Shown: positions 9,846 to 18,607 of the stretch, one piece after another | How positions within the stretch are numbered: the stretch's first letter is position 1 | How the letters are laid out: each line of letters opens with the position of its first letter | From: a virus | IMG/VR virus record: IMGVR_UViG_3300048903_000091 | Coordinates: 1-20,441 of that record | Reading direction: 5' to 3' (one strand) | DNA length: 20,441 nucleotides | The notes under the pieces: model-generated | Seen by the model: only the letters and a program-made list of their open reading frames with translations | Told to the model about the DNA's origin: nothing | Databases searched by the model: none | Translations under genes and position numbers: made by a program

Positions 9846-11858
9846 TTAGGCGTGCTTGCGCGTGAACTGCCAGGACGCCGTGGCCTCGTTCGCGATGAAG
9901 CGACCGGCAGCCGCGACGGCGTAGACGGTCGTGGACTGACCGGCCGCGAGAGCGGTCTGGGCGCCGGCGGTGAGCGTGGTGCCCGCGCTGTCCTTGTAGA
10001 CCAGACCGGTGACGGTCGGGATCGTGGCGACACCAGTGGTGGCGTTGAAGCCCGGCTCGACCGGGACGACCTCGGTGTCAGCCGCGGCGGTCTTCATGAC
10101 GACCAGGGCGGACTTCGGCTTGAGGAGAGCGCCGGACATGCGGGTCTCGATCAGGTACTTCTGCTGGTTGTAGTCGATGTCGAAGTCGTCGAAGAGGCTG
10201 ACCTCGCCGCCGCGGTCCGTACCGACGTTGTAGTCGTCGAGGTTGACGATGATGCCGATCAGCCCCGCGACCTCCTTCATGACCTCGACGGTGACGATCT
10301 GCTTGACGCCGAGAGCGTCAGCGACGGCCTGCTTCGTCTCGTAGAGGCGCCGGCCCATCTGGTCCTTGGCCTTGAGGAACTTGTTGAGCTCGGGGATGGT
10401 GGTGAAGAAGGTCGGCGTGCCGGTGCCCTTGTAGTACTCCATGCCGTCCATGACGACGTCCACGACCTCGTCGTAGGTGGAGTCCGCGTCGTCGACGTTG
10501 ACGTTCAGCGTGGTGACGAAGAGCTCGTGGTCGTTGAGGATCGAACGGATGCCGTCACCGGCCGCGCCGATCGGCTCCTTGACCTTGTCCTCGTCCGCGA
10601 CGTTCCGGCCGTCACCGATGAGGATCGCACGGGCGATCTCCTCCTCGAGCATGAGCCGCATCTCGGCCTTGAGGAAGGCGACGATGTCGAAGTCCGTGAT
10701 GTCGATGATGTCGTCACGGTCGAGCTTCTGCTTCTTGTAGAGCGTGGTGGGGCCGGTGGTCCGCTTCGTGACCCCGAACCACTCCTCGAGCTTGTAGTTG
10801 CCCTTGATGTAGCCCTTGGCGCGGGCCTCGTCCTGGGTCAGGTCGGCCGCGAAGGTCTTGATCCGGGAGAACGGGGTGTGTCGAGTACCGCCGAGGACGG
10901 TGGCCACCCACTCGGTCCGACGCTTCTCGAGCTCGATCGTCCCGGTGGCCATCTTGGCGTCCGGGAAGAGGATGTCGATGTTGTCGATGCCGTGCTGGAG
11001 GGTGTCGGCGTAGTGCTGGACCGCGTCTCGCAGCGAGCCGCACTTGACGGCGTCCGCGAAAATGCCCTTGATGGCGTCGTGGCTCAGAGCAGCGGACTTG
11101 TTGCCGCCCTCGGTCTTGTCGGTGGACTGGTCGAACACGTTGCGCGACATGTTGTCGGCTCCTTCCTTGTGGGTGAGGTCGCCCTCGCCGGGCTTGTCGG
11201 AGTGGGCGGCGTCGGCCGCGGCGTTCTCGAGGGCCACGCCGATGAGGTAGTGAACGACGTTCTGCTCCTCCTCGGACATGCCGTCGTAGACGTCCTGGAC
11301 GGTCATGTCGGCCGCGTGCTGCAGGCCTTCGTCATCGTCCTCGTCATCGGCGAAGTCGTGCTGGTCGTCGTCCTCGGTGTCGAGAGCGTGCTCGAGCTCG
11401 AGTCCGGTCTTGATGATGGCCTCGTCGTCCATCTCGGTGATCGAACCGTCACCGTGCTTGATGTTGACGAAGTCGATCACCGCGCCGGGGTTGGCGCCGG
11501 CCAGCACCAGGCTGACCTCACGGATGTTGCCGTGGGTGACCTTCTTGCCGGTCTCCATCAGGTTGTTGGCGTAGATCGACAGGTGCTTGATGTCCCGGTG
11601 CTTGACCATGGACTTGGCGTTCTGCCCCTGCGGCGTGTCGTTGAAGAACGCGTAGGCGTAGATGCCCTCGTCGCGGTGCTCCAGGACCGCGTGTCCCAGG
11701 ACGTTGTCGATCTTGTTGTGTCCGTGCTGGTACAGCAGCGGGACCTGAACCTGGTCCATGTGCTCGAAGGCGCCGGGCATGATGGTTCGGCCGTCGGTGC
11801 ACTTGAGCCCAGCCTTGGTGGCCCAGCCGCCGAAGTCGGCTTCCAGAGTTACTGCCAT
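9846..11858 (-). CDS. Fused prohead protease and major capsid protein
   Basis: 670 residues combining two normally separate genes. Residues 1 to about 135 are an HK97-type prohead protease: H45 in LLYQHGHN, S94 in KHLSIYANN and the REVSLVLAGANPGAVID block (113-129) fit the usual active-site layout. A long acidic linker (about 153-180, many Asp and Glu) and a helical segment near 190-215 follow. From about M237 (MSRNVFDQS) the sequence is an HK97-fold capsid protein, with GYIKGNYKLEEWFGVT and a long FLKAEMRLMLEEEIARAI helix. The last 70 residues (GFNATTGVATIPTVTGLVYK to WQFTRKHA) form an Ig-like domain like that of the tube protein. Codons are strongly G/C-ending. The linker may act as a built-in scaffold that the protease removes. 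AAGGAGA lies 11 bases before the ATG. Confidence 0.92.
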   Translation of the reverse strand: MAVTLEADFGGWATKAGLKCTDGRTIMPGAFEHMDQVQVPLLYQHGHNKIDNVLGHAVLEHRDEGIYAYAFFNDTPQGQNAKSMVKHRDIKHLSIYANNLMETGKKVTHGNIREVSLVLAGANPGAVIDFVNIKHGDGSITEMDDEAIIKTGLELEHALDTEDDDQHDFADDEDDDEGLQHAADMTVQDVYDGMSEEEQNVVHYLIGVALENAAADAAHSDKPGEGDLTHKEGADNMSRNVFDQSTDKTEGGNKSAALSHDAIKGIFADAVKCGSLRDAVQHYADTLQHGIDNIDILFPDAKMATGTIELEKRRTEWVATVLGGTRHTPFSRIKTFAADLTQDEARAKGYIKGNYKLEEWFGVTKRTTGPTTLYKKQKLDRDDIIDITDFDIVAFLKAEMRLMLEEEIARAILIGDGRNVADEDKVKEPIGAAGDGIRSILNDHELFVTTLNVNVDDADSTYDEVVDVVMDGMEYYKGTGTPTFFTTIPELNKFLKAKDQMGRRLYETKQAVADALGVKQIVTVEVMKEVAGLIGIIVNLDDYNVGTDRGGEVSLFDDFDIDYNQQKYLIETRMSGALLKPKSALVVMKTAAADTEVVPVEPGFNATTGVATIPTVTGLVYKDSAGTTLTAGAQTALAAGQSTTVYAVAAAGRFIANEATASWQFTRKHA

Positions 11859-11874: not shown

Positions 11875-12369
11875 CTACTTCGATGTGTTTCGCCGGGCTC
11901 CGACGGAGCCGTCCTTGCGCATCTTGGCGATCCGCTCTTGAATGGTCTTGATCTTCTCGTTCAACGACTTGATCTGAGCCTCGGGAGTATCGAGCTTCTC
12001 CCTGCGCTTCTTGTCAGCCTTGGCCTTCGCAGCTTTCTGCGCAGCAGTGAGCTTTTCGGTCTTACCCGATGACTTCTGCTGAGAAGCGGACTTCGTGGGG
12101 TCCGCTTTCTTCGTTTCGACGCCACTGCGCTTCTGAGCAGCTTCGGTGAGCTGCTTGAGGACAGCACGAAGCTTTTCGAGACGTCCCTTGAGGGCCGCGA
12201 TCTGGGCTTCTTGCTTCTTCCGCCGTTCGGCCTGTCGCTGGGCTCTCGTCTTCTTCGGAGGCGCCTTAGGGCGAACAGCACCCTTCTTGCGGCCCTTCAG
12301 TTTCCGAGTTCTCAGGTAGTACTCACGCCGCTTAATCGCGTCGTAGTTGTGAAGGAGCTCGTCATCCAT
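11875..12369 (-). CDS. Lysine-rich coiled-coil protein, possible head assembly factor
   Basis: 164 residues, about a third Lys or Arg. The N-terminus MDDELLHNYDAIKRREYYLR carries the YDAIKRREYYLRTRKLKGRK block that I recall in actinophage proteins of the head region, some of which also carry the HYGVKGM motif. A basic coiled coil (about 42-80), a low-complexity Lys/Ser/Ala stretch and a second coiled coil (about 128-152) follow. The start at 12369 overlaps the portal stop by 8 bp; a longer upstream reading is only the portal gene in another frame. It lies between portal and protease-capsid, where scaffolds are often encoded, but its strong positive charge would also suit a DNA-binding internal protein. 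Function is not established. Confidence 0.8.
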   Translation of the reverse strand: MDDELLHNYDAIKRREYYLRTRKLKGRKKGAVRPKAPPKKTRAQRQAERRKKQEAQIAALKGRLEKLRAVLKQLTEAAQKRSGVETKKADPTKSASQQKSSGKTEKLTAAQKAAKAKADKKRREKLDTPEAQIKSLNEKIKTIQERIAKMRKDGSVGARRNTSK

Positions 12370-13735
12370 CTTCGATACCGAGATCCGCGAAGATCTGGTC
12401 GAGCGTGGCGTTGAGCTCATCCAGGCCACTCGACACGACGTCGGCACCGGGGTCGTCAACAGCGTCCGCGTTGGGATCGCCGGCGACATCGGTTGCATCT
12501 GTCGGCGGAGCAGCACCTGTACCCATGTCGGTTCCAGGCTGAGGCATGTTGCTGTTCACGAGCTGATCAGCCTTCGGATCCTGAGAAGGCTTGAACCCGA
12601 TGCCCTGACGGATCTCGTTCGAGCTGAGGATCTCGTTCCGGGTGAACTTGTCGGCGATCTCGGCAATATCAGCCATCGGAACCAGAGCGAACGGGTCACG
12701 GAAGTACATGACCGATTGGCCCTGCGTCCGAGCTGTCTTCGTCAGGAAGGCGCGCCTCATGGCCTCCGTGACCGCCTGAATAACAGGCTGGATCGTCCGA
12801 CTGTAGTAGTTCAGCATGGCCTTCTCGTCGGCCGTGCCGTTCATGACCTCAGGAGTCAGACCGAGTTCGCTGTAAAGCTTGTCGGTCAGATACTTGATCT
12901 GCTCCAAGAGGTTGTTGTCCACCGGGCGGTTGAGCTGAGTGATCTTCTCGGTACCGTCGGTGTAGGCGATACCGTACTTGCTCCCCTTGAGCTGGAACTC
13001 AATATCCTTACGGCGCTGTTCGGCCTGCTGGCGTCGAGCGTCAGTCTTGATAACGTAGGGGAGCTGAATGATCATGTCGAGCTTGCCGGAACTGGAAGCT
13101 TCGTCGACCGTGTCAAGCATGGTCAGCTTCCGGGTGAGACGCTTCAGCGTAGAGTTCGGCTCGTTCATCACCGCGTAAAGCGGATTTTCAACGATGGCCG
13201 TCATCTGCTTCGGAACCGTTACGATCTTCGTCTCGCCGAGACGCTGGTCATAAAGACTCACCCGAACGTGCCCTGGTTGCCAGCCTACGATCTCTCCTAC
13301 TCGGAGTTGCTGAATATCGTAGCCGCCAGTTTCAGTAGGACTGAGACTCGTCTCGACAGGGACGATCGCGATGACGCCCTTTTCGAAAATGGTGTGAGCT
13401 ATGTCCTGTCGGAACTGGCGAGGGAGCTGATCCAAGTTCGGGTCTACGGTCAGACAGTCATGAAGACCGCTGGTCGTAATATCGTTGAGGTACCGGCCAT
13501 CAGCGTCAGTCCGGACATGCCTGATGTCGATCCCCGAAACATCGATACTGAGTCGGGTGTAGATCGACGAGATGAGCGTTCGTTCGTTGCCGTAAGAGGC
13601 ACGACGGCGGTCAGGAGGGCTGTAATAACCCAGCGTCGCACCGGTGGTGTGAAGCCCGTCAAGGTAGTCCGGATCCGTGAAAACATTCCAACCGTGGCGA
13701 ATGGTGGACTTAACACGTGAAAACAAGTTTGCCAT
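12362..13735 (-). CDS. Portal protein
   Basis: 457 residues with HK97-type portal features. The N-terminal part (NERTLISSIYTRLSIDVSG, 50-68) and the wing region with VPKQMTAIVENPLYAVMNEP are followed by the stem and clip. KYLTDKLYSELGLTPEVMNG (about 285-304) and the EKAMLNYYSRTIQPVIQAV helix are characteristic. It forms the dodecameric ring through which DNA enters and leaves the head, and it docks the terminase. The last 55 residues are an Ala/Asp/Gly-rich acidic tail. The ATG at 13735 follows GAGGAGGTGACTC, a strong ribosome site. Flanked by tagged protein 5 upstream and the coiled-coil protein downstream. Confidence 0.92.
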   Translation of the reverse strand: MANLFSRVKSTIRHGWNVFTDPDYLDGLHTTGATLGYYSPPDRRRASYGNERTLISSIYTRLSIDVSGIDIRHVRTDADGRYLNDITTSGLHDCLTVDPNLDQLPRQFRQDIAHTIFEKGVIAIVPVETSLSPTETGGYDIQQLRVGEIVGWQPGHVRVSLYDQRLGETKIVTVPKQMTAIVENPLYAVMNEPNSTLKRLTRKLTMLDTVDEASSSGKLDMIIQLPYVIKTDARRQQAEQRRKDIEFQLKGSKYGIAYTDGTEKITQLNRPVDNNLLEQIKYLTDKLYSELGLTPEVMNGTADEKAMLNYYSRTIQPVIQAVTEAMRRAFLTKTARTQGQSVMYFRDPFALVPMADIAEIADKFTRNEILSSNEIRQGIGFKPSQDPKADQLVNSNMPQPGTDMGTGAAPPTDATDVAGDPNADAVDDPGADVVSSGLDELNATLDQIFADLGIEDG

Positions 13736-13768: not shown

Positions 13769-14428
13769 CTAACCGATCCCCATGTCTCGAAGGAGATTCC
13801 GGGCGGCCTTGTGTCCGTTGGGGTCGGCGGCCTTGGAGTAGGCCTTCTTACCCGCTTCGAAAATTGTCTTGTCGATGCCGGCCTTGTGCGCATAGAGGGC
13901 ACCACCGACGATGATCGCCGTAGCCGCGGAGGCATACTGCGAATTGCCCCGGAGGATATGGCTGGTACCCCGAATACCCTTACGGGTACTGTTGACCACG
14001 TTCTTGCGCTTGCGTTCGGACTGAGCCTTGGCTGCGTGCTTGGACGTGTCCTGGCGATCGAGGTGATGGTCGAACGCCTTCTTGTAGGCGGGGTTGTTCT
14101 TGCTCCTACCCTCGACGGTTGCCTTGATCAGCTTTCGTCGGGTGCCGGCGCCTTCACCGTAGAACTGCTTGGCTCGGGCGAACTCTTTGGCGTCCTTCTT
14201 GGCGGACCGGTTGGTGCTACGAGAAACACCAGGAGGACCGTCATGACGAACGCCCCAGTGCATGCCCTTCACGCCGTAGTGTATGACTTCTCCGTCGGCG
14301 AGAGAATTCAAGTACTCGTCGCTTATCGGAATGAAGCCTGGTTCACTACTCAATTGCAGGAGTTTCTCGTCCAGTGCTTTCTTACTCGGGAAAGCCGAGG
14401 GGACAATAAAACCCGGAGTTCTACTCAC
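13769..14428 (-). CDS. Tagged protein 5: HYGVKGMHWGVR protein with conserved basic block
   Basis: 219 residues. Unlike its relatives, the tag HYGVKGMHWGVRH is internal (50-62), after a 49-residue leader with an LPSKK-like helical part. A basic block follows: NRSAKKDAKEFARAKQFYGE, then GAGTRRKLIKATVE and AYKKAFDHHLDRQDTSKHAA. I recognise this block from other Gram-positive phage proteins that carry the motif, without a known function. A hydrophobic segment (YASAATAIIVGGALYAHKAG, about 164-183) could be membrane-active, and the C-terminus is basic. GTG start, AAGGAGG nine bases upstream, one base after the tagged protein 4 stop. Likely a virion-internal or head-associated protein, by position next to the portal and by analogy with ejected basic proteins; this is inference. 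Confidence 0.85.
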   Translation of the reverse strand: MSRTPGFIVPSAFPSKKALDEKLLQLSSEPGFIPISDEYLNSLADGEVIHYGVKGMHWGVRHDGPPGVSRSTNRSAKKDAKEFARAKQFYGEGAGTRRKLIKATVEGRSKNNPAYKKAFDHHLDRQDTSKHAAKAQSERKRKNVVNSTRKGIRGTSHILRGNSQYASAATAIIVGGALYAHKAGIDKTIFEAGKKAYSKAADPNGHKAARNLLRDMGIG

Positions 14429-14429
14429 G

Positions 14430-15149
14430 CTATCTCACCTCCTTGAAAGGCGTGGGGTCTACGCCAAGTTCCTGGTGCAGGGCTTCACCCCAGGCCTTAA
14501 CGTAAGGGGGCGGATTGGATCCCCAGTGGTAGTTGCTAAACAACTCGGCTTCGAGTTCCCCCAAAGAACCAGAAGTTCTGGCGTAACCCGAAATATCCAG
14601 GACAGACACTCCATCTCTCCTGGCTACTTTGGCTGCGGCTTTGAGGGCCTTGTCAAGTGCTTTGACCTTACTACCTACACGCTTGGGGCCGAGAAAGCCG
14701 TTAACAGGCTTTTGATCCGAGTGAAAAACCGAATGAGCACTCTCGTGAGTGAGAAGCGCTCGTGTGTTTGCGGTTCCCGGTGCCATCCAACCCGACGACT
14801 CCGCCTCGCTCAAGACCGGGGTGAAATCTTTCTTCTGCATGAAGATTGTCCCGTGAACTGCGCCCTTAACGAGGTTGACGTTCTCTACGTAAGCCAGAGT
14901 TCCCGGGTACTCGGGGTGATCAGGACCGATTGTCTTCACTGTGTTGATGTCGTAGCCATAACGATCCCGTATCAGGTTCGTTACTTCGACGGCGGCATCT
15001 CTGGTCTTCTTATTGAAGCCCGAGTCCATAGCGAGCCCACCAGATGTGAAACGATTCGTTCCGTCATCTTCCTTCCGGACACCCCAGTGCATCCCCTTGA
15101 CACCATAGTGCACCACCTTGTCTTGAGGATTCTTCTCCCATTTTGACAT
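14430..15149 (-). CDS. Tagged protein 4: HYGVKGMHWGVRK protein with zincin metallopeptidase domain
   Basis: 239 residues from the ATG at 15149 (MSKWEKNPQDKVVHYGVKGM), with GGGGGG seven bases upstream. Tag at 14-26. The remainder is a globular domain with a zinc-metallopeptidase signature: LLTHESAHSVFH gives HExxH at H135 to H139, and ISGYARTSGSLGELEAELF (186-204) matches the Y-A...E-x-x-x-E-[AL]-F element of zincin toxins, so E202 (or E198) is the likely third zinc ligand. Metal binding and peptidase activity are inferred, not shown. Comparable domains occur at the C-terminus of polymorphic toxins and some MuF-type phage proteins. Possible targets are a host protein after ejection or a virion protein during maturation. 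No signal peptide. It lies between tagged proteins 3 and 5. Confidence 0.85.
   Translation of the reverse strand: MSKWEKNPQDKVVHYGVKGMHWGVRKEDDGTNRFTSGGLAMDSGFNKKTRDAAVEVTNLIRDRYGYDINTVKTIGPDHPEYPGTLAYVENVNLVKGAVHGTIFMQKKDFTPVLSEAESSGWMAPGTANTRALLTHESAHSVFHSDQKPVNGFLGPKRVGSKVKALDKALKAAAKVARRDGVSVLDISGYARTSGSLGELEAELFSNYHWGSNPPPYVKAWGEALHQELGVDPTPFKEVR
15135..15147 (-). repeat. 13-bp repeated motif, copy 2 (GTCAAAATGGGAG)
   Basis: Begins at the last base of the tagged protein 4 start codon and encodes SKWE there. Confidence 0.6.
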
Positions 15150-15162
15150 AGAGGATCCCCCC

Positions 15163-15630
15163 TTACAGTGATGAGATGTCGTAGATGCCCTTGCGGTTCT
15201 GCTTGGAGAAGGTCGGCCCATCGGTAGCCATTCGGGGGAGACCCATCGCGTTAGCAGCGGCAGCTCTCCCTCGGTTGGTCTCAGCCTTGACGGCGATGTG
15301 CTGAACAGCGATGCCGGCGGCCAGGCTGGCGAGTGTTCCGGCAACTTGGGCGCCGACCTTCAGCTGTTCTCGGTACTTCACCGAGGTGGACGCCAGGATG
15401 ATGGAACTTCGAACTCGCCGCCGGTACTTGAACTCGTTCTTCCGAGCAGTTGCGAGGTCTTGGCCCTTGTTCATCCGGCGGTTGATCCTCTTGACACCGC
15501 CCTGACCGTGGTTCTTCCGGTCTGTCTTCTGGTGGTTCTTGGTGTAGCCGGCGTTCGTCGGGGTGTTCTTTCGGACACCCCAGTGCATCCCCTTCACGCC
15601 ATAGTGCGTGATCTCACTGGGGGAGTTCAT
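15163..15630 (-). CDS. Tagged protein 3: small basic HYGVKGMHWGVRK protein
   Basis: 155 residues, MNSPSEITHYGVKGMHWGVR, tag at 9-21. The next 60 residues are very basic and poor in hydrophobic residues (KNHQKTDRKNHGQGG, RINRRMNKGQD, FKYRRRVRSS). A hydrophobic helix follows (VGAQVAGTLASLAAGIAVQH, about 92-111) and then a basic C-terminus. No enzymatic motif. The ATG overlaps the end of tagged protein 2 by 17 bp, and no strong ribosome site is seen, so it is probably translated by coupling. The layout of tag, basic region, hydrophobic helix is shared with other members of the set and suggests DNA association in the head and membrane contact on release. That is inference. Confidence 0.85.
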   Translation of the reverse strand: MNSPSEITHYGVKGMHWGVRKNTPTNAGYTKNHQKTDRKNHGQGGVKRINRRMNKGQDLATARKNEFKYRRRVRSSIILASTSVKYREQLKVGAQVAGTLASLAAGIAVQHIAVKAETNRGRAAAANAMGLPRMATDGPTFSKQNRKGIYDISSL

Positions 15631-15964
15631 GGTCCGACTTCTTGTGCGCGGCGAGCGCGAGGGTGATCAGGTTGGCGGATCCGTACGCGTTGAGGATGTC
15701 GCCGACCTTTGCCTTTCCGGTGGCGAGACGCTTCTCTGCGGCCCGGATCTTCTCCGCTCGGTGGGCCGAGTTACCCTTCAGACCTCGCTTGGCGAGACCG
15801 TAAACGCTCGATGTACTAGCGGCTCCGATCTTGTCCCTGAGAGATCCATTGCCCGACGCCACCCGCTCGAGACGGCTCGCAGCCTTGTTGAGGTTTCCGG
15901 TGTGCGCCTTTCGGACGCCCCACTTCATGCCCTTGACACCATAGTGGATGAGCTCATCGCCCAT
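15614..15964 (-). CDS. Tagged protein 2: small basic HYGVKGMKWGVRK protein
   Basis: 116 residues, MGDELIHYGVKGMKWGVRKA, tag at 7-19. The start at 15964 has AAAGGAG nearby upstream and places the tag at the N-terminus; a longer reading from 15994 would run into the terminase gene. After the tag the protein is helical and basic (NKAASRLERVASGNGSLRDK, GLAKRGLKGNSAHRAEKIRA, EKRLATGKAKVGDILNAYG), ending in a short apolar stretch (ANLITLALAAHKK). It begins 22 bases after the terminase stop, which fits production with packaging proteins. I know no function. Confidence 0.85.
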   Translation of the reverse strand: MGDELIHYGVKGMKWGVRKAHTGNLNKAASRLERVASGNGSLRDKIGAASTSSVYGLAKRGLKGNSAHRAEKIRAAEKRLATGKAKVGDILNAYGSANLITLALAAHKKSDHELPQ

Positions 15965-15986
15965 TTTGCAAACTCCTTTCAGGGGC

Positions 15987-17732
15987 TCAATCAAACGCGT
16001 CTTTGTTCAACTTGTACGCAACGAATGCGTCCATCATTGCGGCCACGTTGTCGATCTTGGCTTCCTGTCGCTTCTTGAGAAGCTTACGGTTGCCGTTTGT
16101 GTCTTCCATGGTGATCGCGTTACCCATGGCGAATGTCATGAGCCCTTGATCAAAAATGAGCAATCTTGATCCACTAAGAGCCTTGAGTTCCCCAAGCGGG
16201 ACAGACTCAGTCCTCGCCCCCTGAATCACTTTCTCGATGCCGTATGGGCCGTTCTCCGCTTCCCAGCGGGCGACGAACTCCTTAGCGTTGTAGGGGTCGA
16301 AACCAAACGCGCGCACGTCATAGGCAGATTCCTGGATGAACGCATCCAGGTCATCAAATACCTCCATCATGTCGAGGATCGTGCCCTCGAGAACATGGAG
16401 GCTTCCTTCGTTGATGAACTCCTCGTACTTCTGGCGCATAGCTCCCGGCAGCTTCATCAGCGTCAACGACGTAATGTAGCTTCGGGTCTTTACGCCGAAT
16501 TTCCCATCTCGCAGTGGAAAGAGGAATGTGAATGCACAGAAGTCATCACCCTGGGAAAGGTCAGCGCCAAGTGCACAAGGCATCTCCCAGAATTCGCGGT
16601 AAGGATGAGGCAGAGTCTCCTCGTAGGTGAAGAAGTACGTGTAACCCTCCATCGGAATCCCGAAACGCTTCGCCAGAATGTCGTTCCTGGCCGCGGGCGC
16701 CTTCTCGGCTCGTTCAACGTCGAGTTGGTATACGTCATACGTTACGGTCTTCCCGAGATTTGGGTTGGCCTTCAACCACATAGAGGGGTCGCCGACTTCC
16801 TCCAACTCGTCAAGCTTGTAGTGCCAGATCGAGACATGGGGCGCGTTGTAGTCACCCTTGAGAATGTCTTGAAGCTCAAGCTTGATCGTGTCGCCGCTAC
16901 CGTTACGGACGGTTCCCTCTGAACTGACTGCCACGATAAGGTAGTCGTCCAGCTTAGAGGCGCCCTGTTCGATAGCACCGATGACGTCTTCTCGCAGATC
17001 TCCGGATAGCCACTCATCTACAGTTGCTACCTTGGTCCGGAGACCCTGGAGTTTGTTGATCGTCATCGGTCGGATCTCGAGCATCGAACCCGTCAGGAAG
17101 TTCTCGATGCCCTTCTTGGTCGCAGCCAGTTTGACTCGGTTGGCTTTCGACCCCGTGGTGTTCTGGAGCGATCCCTCTGTGAGAAATGCGAAGAGAGGAC
17201 CGCGGCTTCGGACGATGGAAGTCCGAACGGGGGACATGACCTCTTCGGCCTGCTTCATCGTCGGCGCCGTTGTGATCTGGTGCGTCGTCGCGGCGTCGAT
17301 GTTGAGGAAATAGCTCTGCAGACAGGACTCGTAAAGCGACTTTGCCGCACCTCGAGCAACGATGAGGTACTGCTTGGTTGTCAGGCGCTTCTTGATGACC
17401 TTGTCTACGTAGCGACCTCCGCCCCCGTTCTCTCCGGGGACATAAACGCTGCGGTTGATGAAGTGGTACCAGCAGAAAATCTGTTCTGCCCAGAGTTTGA
17501 ACGAGTCGAGCAGGTGAAGATCTGTGCCATCGGTGAGGGTGAGCTCGCCTTCGCAGTACTTGACAAAACCTTCTACCGGATCCGGATCATAGTAGATGTT
17601 CGGGTTGGCGATGAGTGCGTCGATACGGTTCATCTCCAACGAGACTTCCCGATTGACAGGAATATCGCCTCTGATCACCGCGTCACGGAATCTCCCATAG
17701 TAGAAAGGAGTAGCCGTGTTCGACAGAGCCAT
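15987..17732 (-). CDS. terL: Terminase large subunit
   Basis: 581 residues. The packaging motor has an N-terminal ATPase and a C-terminal RNase H-like nuclease. The Walker A-type loop is LIVARGAAKS (123-132, K131), a deviant form common in this terminase group. Walker B is VATVDEW (235-241, D239 and E240). The nuclease centre shows the first acidic residue in CALGADLSQGDD (D391), a second in FGFDPYNAKEF (D479) and a third near KIDNVAAMMDAF (D561). Length is typical. ATG at 17732 has AAAGGAGGG six bases upstream and lies 15 bases after the preceding stop. It is flanked on both sides by tagged proteins, so the terminase and these proteins are very probably co-transcribed. Confidence 0.95.
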   Translation of the reverse strand: MALSNTATPFYYGRFRDAVIRGDIPVNREVSLEMNRIDALIANPNIYYDPDPVEGFVKYCEGELTLTDGTDLHLLDSFKLWAEQIFCWYHFINRSVYVPGENGGGGRYVDKVIKKRLTTKQYLIVARGAAKSLYESCLQSYFLNIDAATTHQITTAPTMKQAEEVMSPVRTSIVRSRGPLFAFLTEGSLQNTTGSKANRVKLAATKKGIENFLTGSMLEIRPMTINKLQGLRTKVATVDEWLSGDLREDVIGAIEQGASKLDDYLIVAVSSEGTVRNGSGDTIKLELQDILKGDYNAPHVSIWHYKLDELEEVGDPSMWLKANPNLGKTVTYDVYQLDVERAEKAPAARNDILAKRFGIPMEGYTYFFTYEETLPHPYREFWEMPCALGADLSQGDDFCAFTFLFPLRDGKFGVKTRSYITSLTLMKLPGAMRQKYEEFINEGSLHVLEGTILDMMEVFDDLDAFIQESAYDVRAFGFDPYNAKEFVARWEAENGPYGIEKVIQGARTESVPLGELKALSGSRLLIFDQGLMTFAMGNAITMEDTNGNRKLLKKRQEAKIDNVAAMMDAFVAYKLNKDAFD

Positions 17733-17747
17733 CGTCAGCCCTCCTTT

Positions 17748-18227
17748 CTACTTCTCGAGAGCTCGACGGATGAGCACCTGAGCGCCGGCGCCTGCTGCCG
17801 CGGAAGTTCCTCCGGAAGCATAGGCAGCTCCGGCCTTTGCAGCCACCTTGAACCCGGTCTTCAAGTTCTTGCCTGTCGGAGTGTCCATGAACTTGCGTAC
17901 GTTCTCGTAGGTCTGACCGATAGCGAGGTACTTTTTCACCTGGTCATGACCGCGATCGACCGCGGACCTTGCGGGCGGCTGCGACATCATCTGGGAATAC
18001 TGCCGCTCGAGATTCATCCGCTCGAGAAACTGCCGCATCTCCTGGTTGGAAAGCGACCCCGTTCCCTTGGTCTGAATCTTGTCGTGGAGGCGGCTTGCGT
18101 TCTTGGCGTCGGGAGAAAGGCCGGCCGTGGGAGACTTGCCCGAGGAAGAAGATCCCCCGGACTCGCTCTTGTGGACGCCCCACTTCATGCCCTTGACGCC
18201 GTAGTGGGTGAGGGAAATGTCTCTCAC
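17748..18227 (-). CDS. Tagged protein 1: HYGVKGMKWGVHK protein
   Basis: 159 residues if started at GTG 18227, whose GTGA overlaps the upstream stop and which follows GGAG by eight bases. This puts the tag HYGVKGMKWGVHK at residues 8-20, as in most relatives. An alternative ATG at 18272, with a good GGAAGGAG site, would add 15 residues and overlap the connector gene more deeply. After the tag come a Ser/Gly-rich stretch, a helical Gln/Arg-rich region (SNQEMRQFLERMNLERQYSQ), and a C-terminal Gly/Ala-rich apolar segment (FKVAAKAGAAYASGG) followed by a basic end. It is the only tagged gene upstream of the terminase. Function unknown. Confidence 0.85.
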   Translation of the reverse strand: MRDISLTHYGVKGMKWGVHKSESGGSSSSGKSPTAGLSPDAKNASRLHDKIQTKGTGSLSNQEMRQFLERMNLERQYSQMMSQPPARSAVDRGHDQVKKYLAIGQTYENVRKFMDTPTGKNLKTGFKVAAKAGAAYASGGTSAAAGAGAQVLIRRALEK

Positions 18228-18607
18228 CAGTATTGCTCCGACGCGATCGGCGCCGGGTCGGGGTCGACCCATGATTCTCCTTCCCTCACGACGTTGAGCC
18301 TCCACTCGATCTCATCTATCTGCCGCTTGAACGAGTCGATGACGAACGAGGTGGTCGGCGGGTCAAACAGAAGACGGACTCGGAGGTAGACATAGGTCTG
18401 AACCGAGGCCATCTTCACATCGGTAACGAAGTCGTCCCACGTGGGGTCGGCGTCTTCGATTACGAACCCATCCTCAGGCCCGATTCCGACTTGGTTGAGA
18501 ATGGCGAACACCGAGTTGATGTGAAGCACGATGTCCATGTCGAACGACGTGTCTTCCTCAGCTATGCCGAGAACTTTCTTGACACTGGTGAGGATGCTTT
18601 GTGCCAC
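18224..18607 (-). CDS. Head-tail connector protein, gp6-like
   Basis: 127 residues, MAQSILTSVKKVLGIAEEDT from GTG 18607, with GGAGGAGG eight bases upstream. It has the gp6-like connector pattern: an N-terminal helix with LGI, HINSVFAILNQVGIGPEDGF (29-48), a WDDF turn, and VQTYVYLRVRLLFDPPTTSFV followed by a long helix. Such proteins form a ring beneath the portal. The assignment is supported by close resemblance to a family common in Gram-positive siphoviruses. Its place upstream of the terminase is unusual: in related phages it normally lies after the capsid gene. Its end overlaps tagged protein 1 by 4 bp. Confidence 0.8.
   Translation of the reverse strand: MAQSILTSVKKVLGIAEEDTSFDMDIVLHINSVFAILNQVGIGPEDGFVIEDADPTWDDFVTDVKMASVQTYVYLRVRLLFDPPTTSFVIDSFKRQIDEIEWRLNVVREGESWVDPDPAPIASEQYW

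Follow-up and report, generated by a model that had tools for sequence, protein, structure and literature searches.

Enzymes and toxins are delivered in modular form with a phage or an HK97-fold shell by the MuF-type polymorphic toxins and as encapsulin cargo; encapsulin cargo peptides are usually C-terminal, and the shell is non-viral. In phage T4, 10 residues at the N-terminus are a sufficient packaging signal, and the passengers are basic internal proteins that vary among relatives, plus the ADP-ribosyltransferase (ART) Alt (PMC9026906). In phage P1, internal head proteins of the Dar system (DarA, Hdf, DarB, Ulx and others) are co-ejected with the DNA, some residing on the inner capsid surface and some having DNA-facing positive surfaces (PMC12810830). 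Here, we describe a short peptide tag carried by five proteins (P1 to P5) encoded in a 20,441-nucleotide stretch of viral DNA, positions 1 to 20,441 of IMG/VR virus record IMGVR_UViG_3300048903_000091. This stretch, hereafter the window, comes from a Streptomyces phage of the Rima/LibertyBell type and covers part of its genome.

The tag has the consensus [DE]-x-L-x-H-[HY]-G-[VI]-K-G-[MQ]-K-W-G-V-R-R in our survey set of 437 distinct full-length tagged proteins, which was assembled by a DNA-pattern search of contigs from IMG/VR and GTDB, with named phages added. The DNA pattern was biased to well-conserved tags, so that diverged tags such as that of Lactococcus phage 1706 are under-counted, and start codons were set by a ribosome-site heuristic. 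The same motif is described by Pfam PF23847 (DUF7211), a 25-residue model without an assigned function, which matched 136 of 138 surveyed tagged proteins; neither the motif strings nor "DUF7211" turned up in a literature search. The tag is almost confined to phages whose major capsid protein carries the prohead protease as a fusion, and so probably serves as an address label for loading proteins into the head. We consider it probable that the tag is a capsid-targeting signal (CTS) that brings its carriers into the procapsid, with P1 as the core passenger and P2 to P5 as exchangeable cargo.

Association with protease-capsid fusion heads

Whether the motif always accompanies HK97-type heads was a question raised in the original prediction for this DNA, and all 42 tagged virus records (32 from IMG/VR and 10 named phages) had an HK97-type portal. 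An S78 prohead protease was matched in 38 of these records, each time within an open reading frame (ORF) of 577 to 831 residues representing a capsid fusion. The association was also seen from the side of the head genes. Among loci fetched for the protease-capsid fusion alone, the tag not being a criterion, 43 of the 46 with at least 4.5 kb of upstream sequence had upstream tags. All 108 tags at fusion loci were upstream and shared the strand of the fusion gene; the 468 kb downstream of the fusion genes, a length equal to that upstream, contained none. No tag was carried by any of 47 loci with a stand-alone S78 protease (598 kb scanned; top score 5.1 bits). Of the three tagless fusion loci, two (L308 and L309) have tail-fibre-like genes at the expected place of the cluster, suggesting that the upstream region has been rearranged there, and one (L289) is a true exception.

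Bacterial genomes gave a similar picture. In 29 tag-bearing genomes, 27 of 28 fusion ORFs had a tag no more than a few kb away on their contig, compared to none of seven stand-alone protease genes; among 116 sampled Lachnospirales genomes, all 18 stand-alone protease genes were tagless. Among the 50,697 phage records of INPHARED, the fusion was present in 244 and the tag in 242 to 244, and both lists contain 95 Arthrobacter, 55 Gordonia and 54 Streptomyces phages, a match of genus counts rather than of record lists. Contigs assigned by binning to Saccharibacteria, Thermoplasmata, Dependentiae and Kiritimatiellae also contained tags (L158, L197, L209, L193, L212 and L138); these may be mis-binned phage contigs.

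This association points to the protease-capsid fusion as the likely receptor of the tag, with the portal as a less likely candidate. An alignment of 103 fusions, inspected by eye, contained no convincing match to a tag-like sequence in the protease-capsid linker. A coiled-coil protein was among the head components that the original prediction named as possible receptors; it is ruled out as a universal receptor because five tagged phages (GirlPower, Scarif, Ingrid, Synepsis and 1706) lack a gene between portal and capsid. Separately, a gene of Lactococcus phage P118 that is annotated as a tape-measure protein (L216:5202-6497) encodes a portal.

The tagged genes and their shared sequence

The head region of the window is ordered connector, P1, terminase large subunit (TerL), P2, P3, P4, P5, portal, basic protein and protease-capsid fusion:

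18224..18607, (-) strand: head connector (Phage_connect_2, PF24829)
17748..18272, (-) strand: P1, tagged protein, 174 aa; tag 18171-18206; phrog_11022; Pfam and PHROG matches
15987..17732, (-) strand: TerL, 90-92% identical to Rima-type Streptomyces phages
15614..15964, (-) strand: P2, tagged protein, 116 aa; tag 15911-15946; phrog_17496
15163..15630, (-) strand: P3, tagged protein, 155 aa; tag 15571-15606; phrog_34327
14430..15149, (-) strand: P4, tagged, predicted zincin-like metallopeptidase, 239 aa; tag 15075-15110; HExxH at about 14747-14733
13769..14428, (-) strand: P5, tagged protein, 219 aa; tag 14246-14281; phrog_6291; 48-residue N-terminal RTPGF extension
12362..13735, (-) strand: portal protein (PF04860)
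11875..12456, (-) strand: basic protein between portal and capsid; coiled-coil-type Pfam matches, all sub-threshold
9846..11858, (-) strand: prohead protease (S78) fused to major capsid protein, 670 aa (PF04586 and PF05065)

The five motif copies are located on the minus strand where they had originally been reported, and the reported lengths of 116 to 239 residues are correct, given plausible starts. The proximity to the portal and packaging motor also holds, with P1 directly upstream of TerL and P2 to P5 between TerL and the portal. As had been claimed, the proteins have little similarity outside the motif: P1, P2, P3 and P5 belong to four different PHROGs, and the body of P4 belongs to none. 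The body of P1 contains the motif LSxxELxxxxxRMNLExQY. A tag hidden Markov model built here gave the window tags scores of 47.1, 42.9, 38.1, 36.1 and 35.3 bits, compared to a top score of 11.2 bits in 100 codon-shuffled windows. All five proteins match DUF7211 (E 1e-9 to 1e-11; 36.7-43.7 bits), exceeding its curated cut-off of 27 bits.

The tag is predominantly terminal and modular. It starts no more than 30 residues from the N-terminus in 399 of the 437 surveyed proteins (91%), and the bodies of the 437 proteins, compared with the tag masked, group into 185 clusters, including 157 singletons. In both AlphaFold2 models, one of an ART-like family protein and one of P4, the predicted local distance difference test (pLDDT) score of the tag region is below 50, suggesting that in these models it behaves like a tail and not a domain. 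The possibility that the motif is the core of a single globular domain, on which the original prediction would have fallen, is rejected by the number of body clusters and the low pLDDT over the tag. Several variants of the tagged architecture were observed. In Bacillota loci (for example, L155 and L219), the tag is often prolonged to RRYQNxDGSLTxxGxxRY. Proteins beginning MSYQYDQYL, encoded in L136, L146, L150, L135, L021, L079 and L185, have an internal tag after about 170 residues, and Pfam DUF5662 was matched once in the survey for this type. Two natural fusions of tagged proteins (L126:6528-7520 and L128:5956-6948) consist of a GNAT domain with a tag, followed by a second tag with a P2-like body.

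Surveyed loci usually have the order connector, P1-type protein, TerL, zero to several variable tagged proteins, portal and fusion, with no tag between portal and fusion. The P1 family is present in 159 loci, normally once in each, between connector and TerL, and a P1-type protein is the usual lone member where a locus has one tagged gene. In related loci, a 2H phosphoesterase is fused in front of the P1-type protein. Up to nine tagged proteins are encoded per phage. In Lactococcus phage 1706, orf7 has two tags and the same locus position as P1-type proteins, and was deposited as a "structural protein". Our best reading is that P1 is the core member and that the other tagged proteins are exchangeable cargo.

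The sequence of the tag tracks the genome in which it occurs. Tag identity between unrelated proteins is 0.72 within one phage compared to 0.60 across phages, and label shuffles reached up to 0.61. In three families, tags resemble those of unrelated proteins from their own phage more closely than those of homologues in other phages (0.717 compared to 0.591 for the ART-like family, 0.699 compared to 0.600 for the P1 family, and 0.728 compared to 0.648 for the P5 family), which suggests that there is one receptor per phage. The window tags encode identical residues with different codons at 2-8 of 10-13 positions, implying that selection, and not recent copying, keeps the tags alike. Recent duplication as the source of tag identity is rejected by these synonymous differences.

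Composition and predicted activities of the tagged bodies

Compared locus by locus with untagged neighbours, the tagged bodies have a distinctive composition. Their net charge per 100 residues is +7.65, compared to -0.97 for the neighbours, and they are more basic in 204 of 218 loci; P4 is weakly basic, at +1.3. They contain fewer cysteines in 211 of 218 loci, and 84% are cysteine-free compared to 34% of neighbours. Basic, cysteine-poor bodies would fit storage among virion DNA. Hydrophobic segments were rejected as the chief feature of the tagged bodies, their enrichment being modest (20% compared to 8%).

The largest accessory family, with 54 of 587 tagged proteins, had no Pfam or PDB sequence match. 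The leading structural matches of its model (pLDDT 80) are mostly members of the ADP-ribosyltransferase superfamily, with Z scores of 4-6.5, all below 8; they include MbcT (6.5), the insecticidal ART SAIP (5.5), diphtheria toxin (5.5), Tse6 (4.3), AcrIF11 (4.2) and PARPs. Foldseek alone found no match at E<=0.001 for this model and none of significance for the P4 model. At these modest Z scores, the commonest accessory family may have a previously unrecognised ART-like fold. A member at the left genome end of GirlPower (L126:118-966) is an unannotated tagged ORF ahead of the first annotated gene.

P4 is a predicted zincin-like metallopeptidase, based on its HExxH motif and a downstream acidic ligand within SxYA..EExEAExF. 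T-H-E-x-x-H and E-x-E-A-E-x-F are invariant in eight homologues, and the four best structural matches of a low-confidence P4 model are to lethal factor (Z 5.2-6.3). An N-terminal extension of 40-50 residues that begins RTPGF[IVL] occurs eight times in all fetched loci, on different bodies and always in the tagged gene that directly follows the zincin gene (window 14282-14428, the P5 N-terminus; L126, L127, L129, L130, L225, L226 and L271). At a ninth zincin (L263), the next gene has a similar extension. The RTPGF extension may be an inhibitor, substrate or partner of the zincin. Other tagged proteins contain GNAT (10 members) or 2H phosphoesterase domains (13 members), and one (L109:2367-2936) is similar to the CW_7 endolysin of the window.

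Proposed role, alternatives and known systems

We infer packaging, a receptor and ejection for the tagged proteins as follows. The disordered N-terminal tag would bind the inside of the immature head, its receptor most likely being the protease-capsid fusion subunit that lines the head, or possibly the portal. Any protein bearing the tag would thereby be incorporated in the procapsid, where basic, cysteine-poor bodies would then be interspersed with the packaged DNA. Those bodies that are enzymes (ART-like, zincin, GNAT and 2H phosphoesterase), at the least, would enter the next host with the genome, much as Alt and the internal proteins of T4 do. The docking or sorting function originally proposed for the motif is retained, given a tag that is N-terminal, modular, predicted to be disordered, attached to unrelated bodies, linked to one head type and genome-tracking; the coiled-coil receptor is not.

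Several observations weigh against loading of cargo by the tag. Two or three tags are present in 29 surveyed proteins and an internal tag in 37, some with a domain in front. For the zincin, GNAT, P2, P3 and 2H families, tag similarity within the same genome was not significantly higher. Locus L289 has a complete connector-TerL-portal-fusion cluster without a tag and with unrelated ORFs at the P1 position, and the tag is therefore not essential to fusion heads. Part of the co-occurrence of tag and fusion could come from the common ancestry of one head lineage. The virion evidence for tagged proteins is a single depositor's label, that of 1706 orf7.

One alternative interpretation is that the tag anchors purely structural proteins of the inner head, as a substitute for a core or scaffold, and aids assembly without delivery to the host. 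The near-universal P1, with its fixed position beside the connector, agrees with this, as do the structural label of 1706 orf7 and the lack of an obvious separate scaffold gene in fusion heads. However, accessory tagged proteins differ in number and body among phages, a scaffold does not need ART-like, zincin, GNAT or 2H domains, and the L289 head cluster is intact without any tag, so we regard this interpretation as unlikely. That tagged genes flank TerL and lie directly upstream of the portal could instead mean that, during packaging, the tag brings proteins to the portal or terminase motor, and that these proteins are not in the virion. Yet portal and terminase are present in all HK97-type phages, including the 47 tagless loci with a stand-alone protease; the enzyme domains have no obvious packaging role, and orf7 of 1706 is labelled structural. 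We judge motor docking to be quite improbable. A role as a propeptide, or as an inhibitor or substrate segment that holds or times the protease domain, would match a short, N-terminal, predicted disordered tag whose presence follows the protease-capsid fusion. Such a role is hard to reconcile with up to nine tagged proteins per phage with enzyme bodies, and with tags that are also internal with large domains in front, and we give it very little credence.

For the capsid-targeting reading, we also incline, by slightly better than an even chance, to a broader form: DUF7211 would be a widespread capsid-targeting code by which a protease-capsid fusion lineage with hosts in several phyla loads swappable enzymes that are delivered with the DNA, among them an ART-like family that had escaped recognition and a zincin together with a linked partner module. 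To the extent that we searched the literature, neither the association with fusion heads nor the composition and list of the cargo had been described. If true, this reading would provide a function for a curated, unexplained Pfam family, and would let hundreds of phage proteins now listed as hypothetical be recognised as head cargo by a 15-residue pattern. Early-acting enzymes, such as the ART-like protein, peptidase, acetyltransferase and 2H phosphoesterase, would be predicted to arrive with the genome in phages of Streptomyces, Arthrobacter, Gordonia, Lactococcus and gut Bacillota. In laboratory phages, the tag could also serve as a simple means of packaging a protein of choice.

Known systems resemble this one in different respects. 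MuF toxins differ in their domain, as MuF (Phage_Mu_F) was not among the 25 of 28 matched Pfam families listed for 138 tagged proteins. A pre-ejectosome protein of cyanophage A4 (PDB 9k3a) is a structural match to the ART-like cargo (Z 6.3), but the match is to part of a much larger protein, with 8% identity and a low Z score. In phage P1, the attachment to the capsid that is described runs through DarA and Hdf rather than through a peptide common to all passengers. The CTS of T4 proteins IPI-IPIII and Alt is, like the tag, a short N-terminal signal on unrelated, mostly basic proteins, in a phage that encodes a prohead protease and whose passengers vary among relatives. T4 belongs to another phage group, whereas the head here is HK97-like with the protease fused to the capsid, and the tags here can be internal or repeated. 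The likeness drawn here is one of such features. Without claiming membership in the T4 system, we suggest that the DUF7211 tag probably works much as the T4 CTS does.
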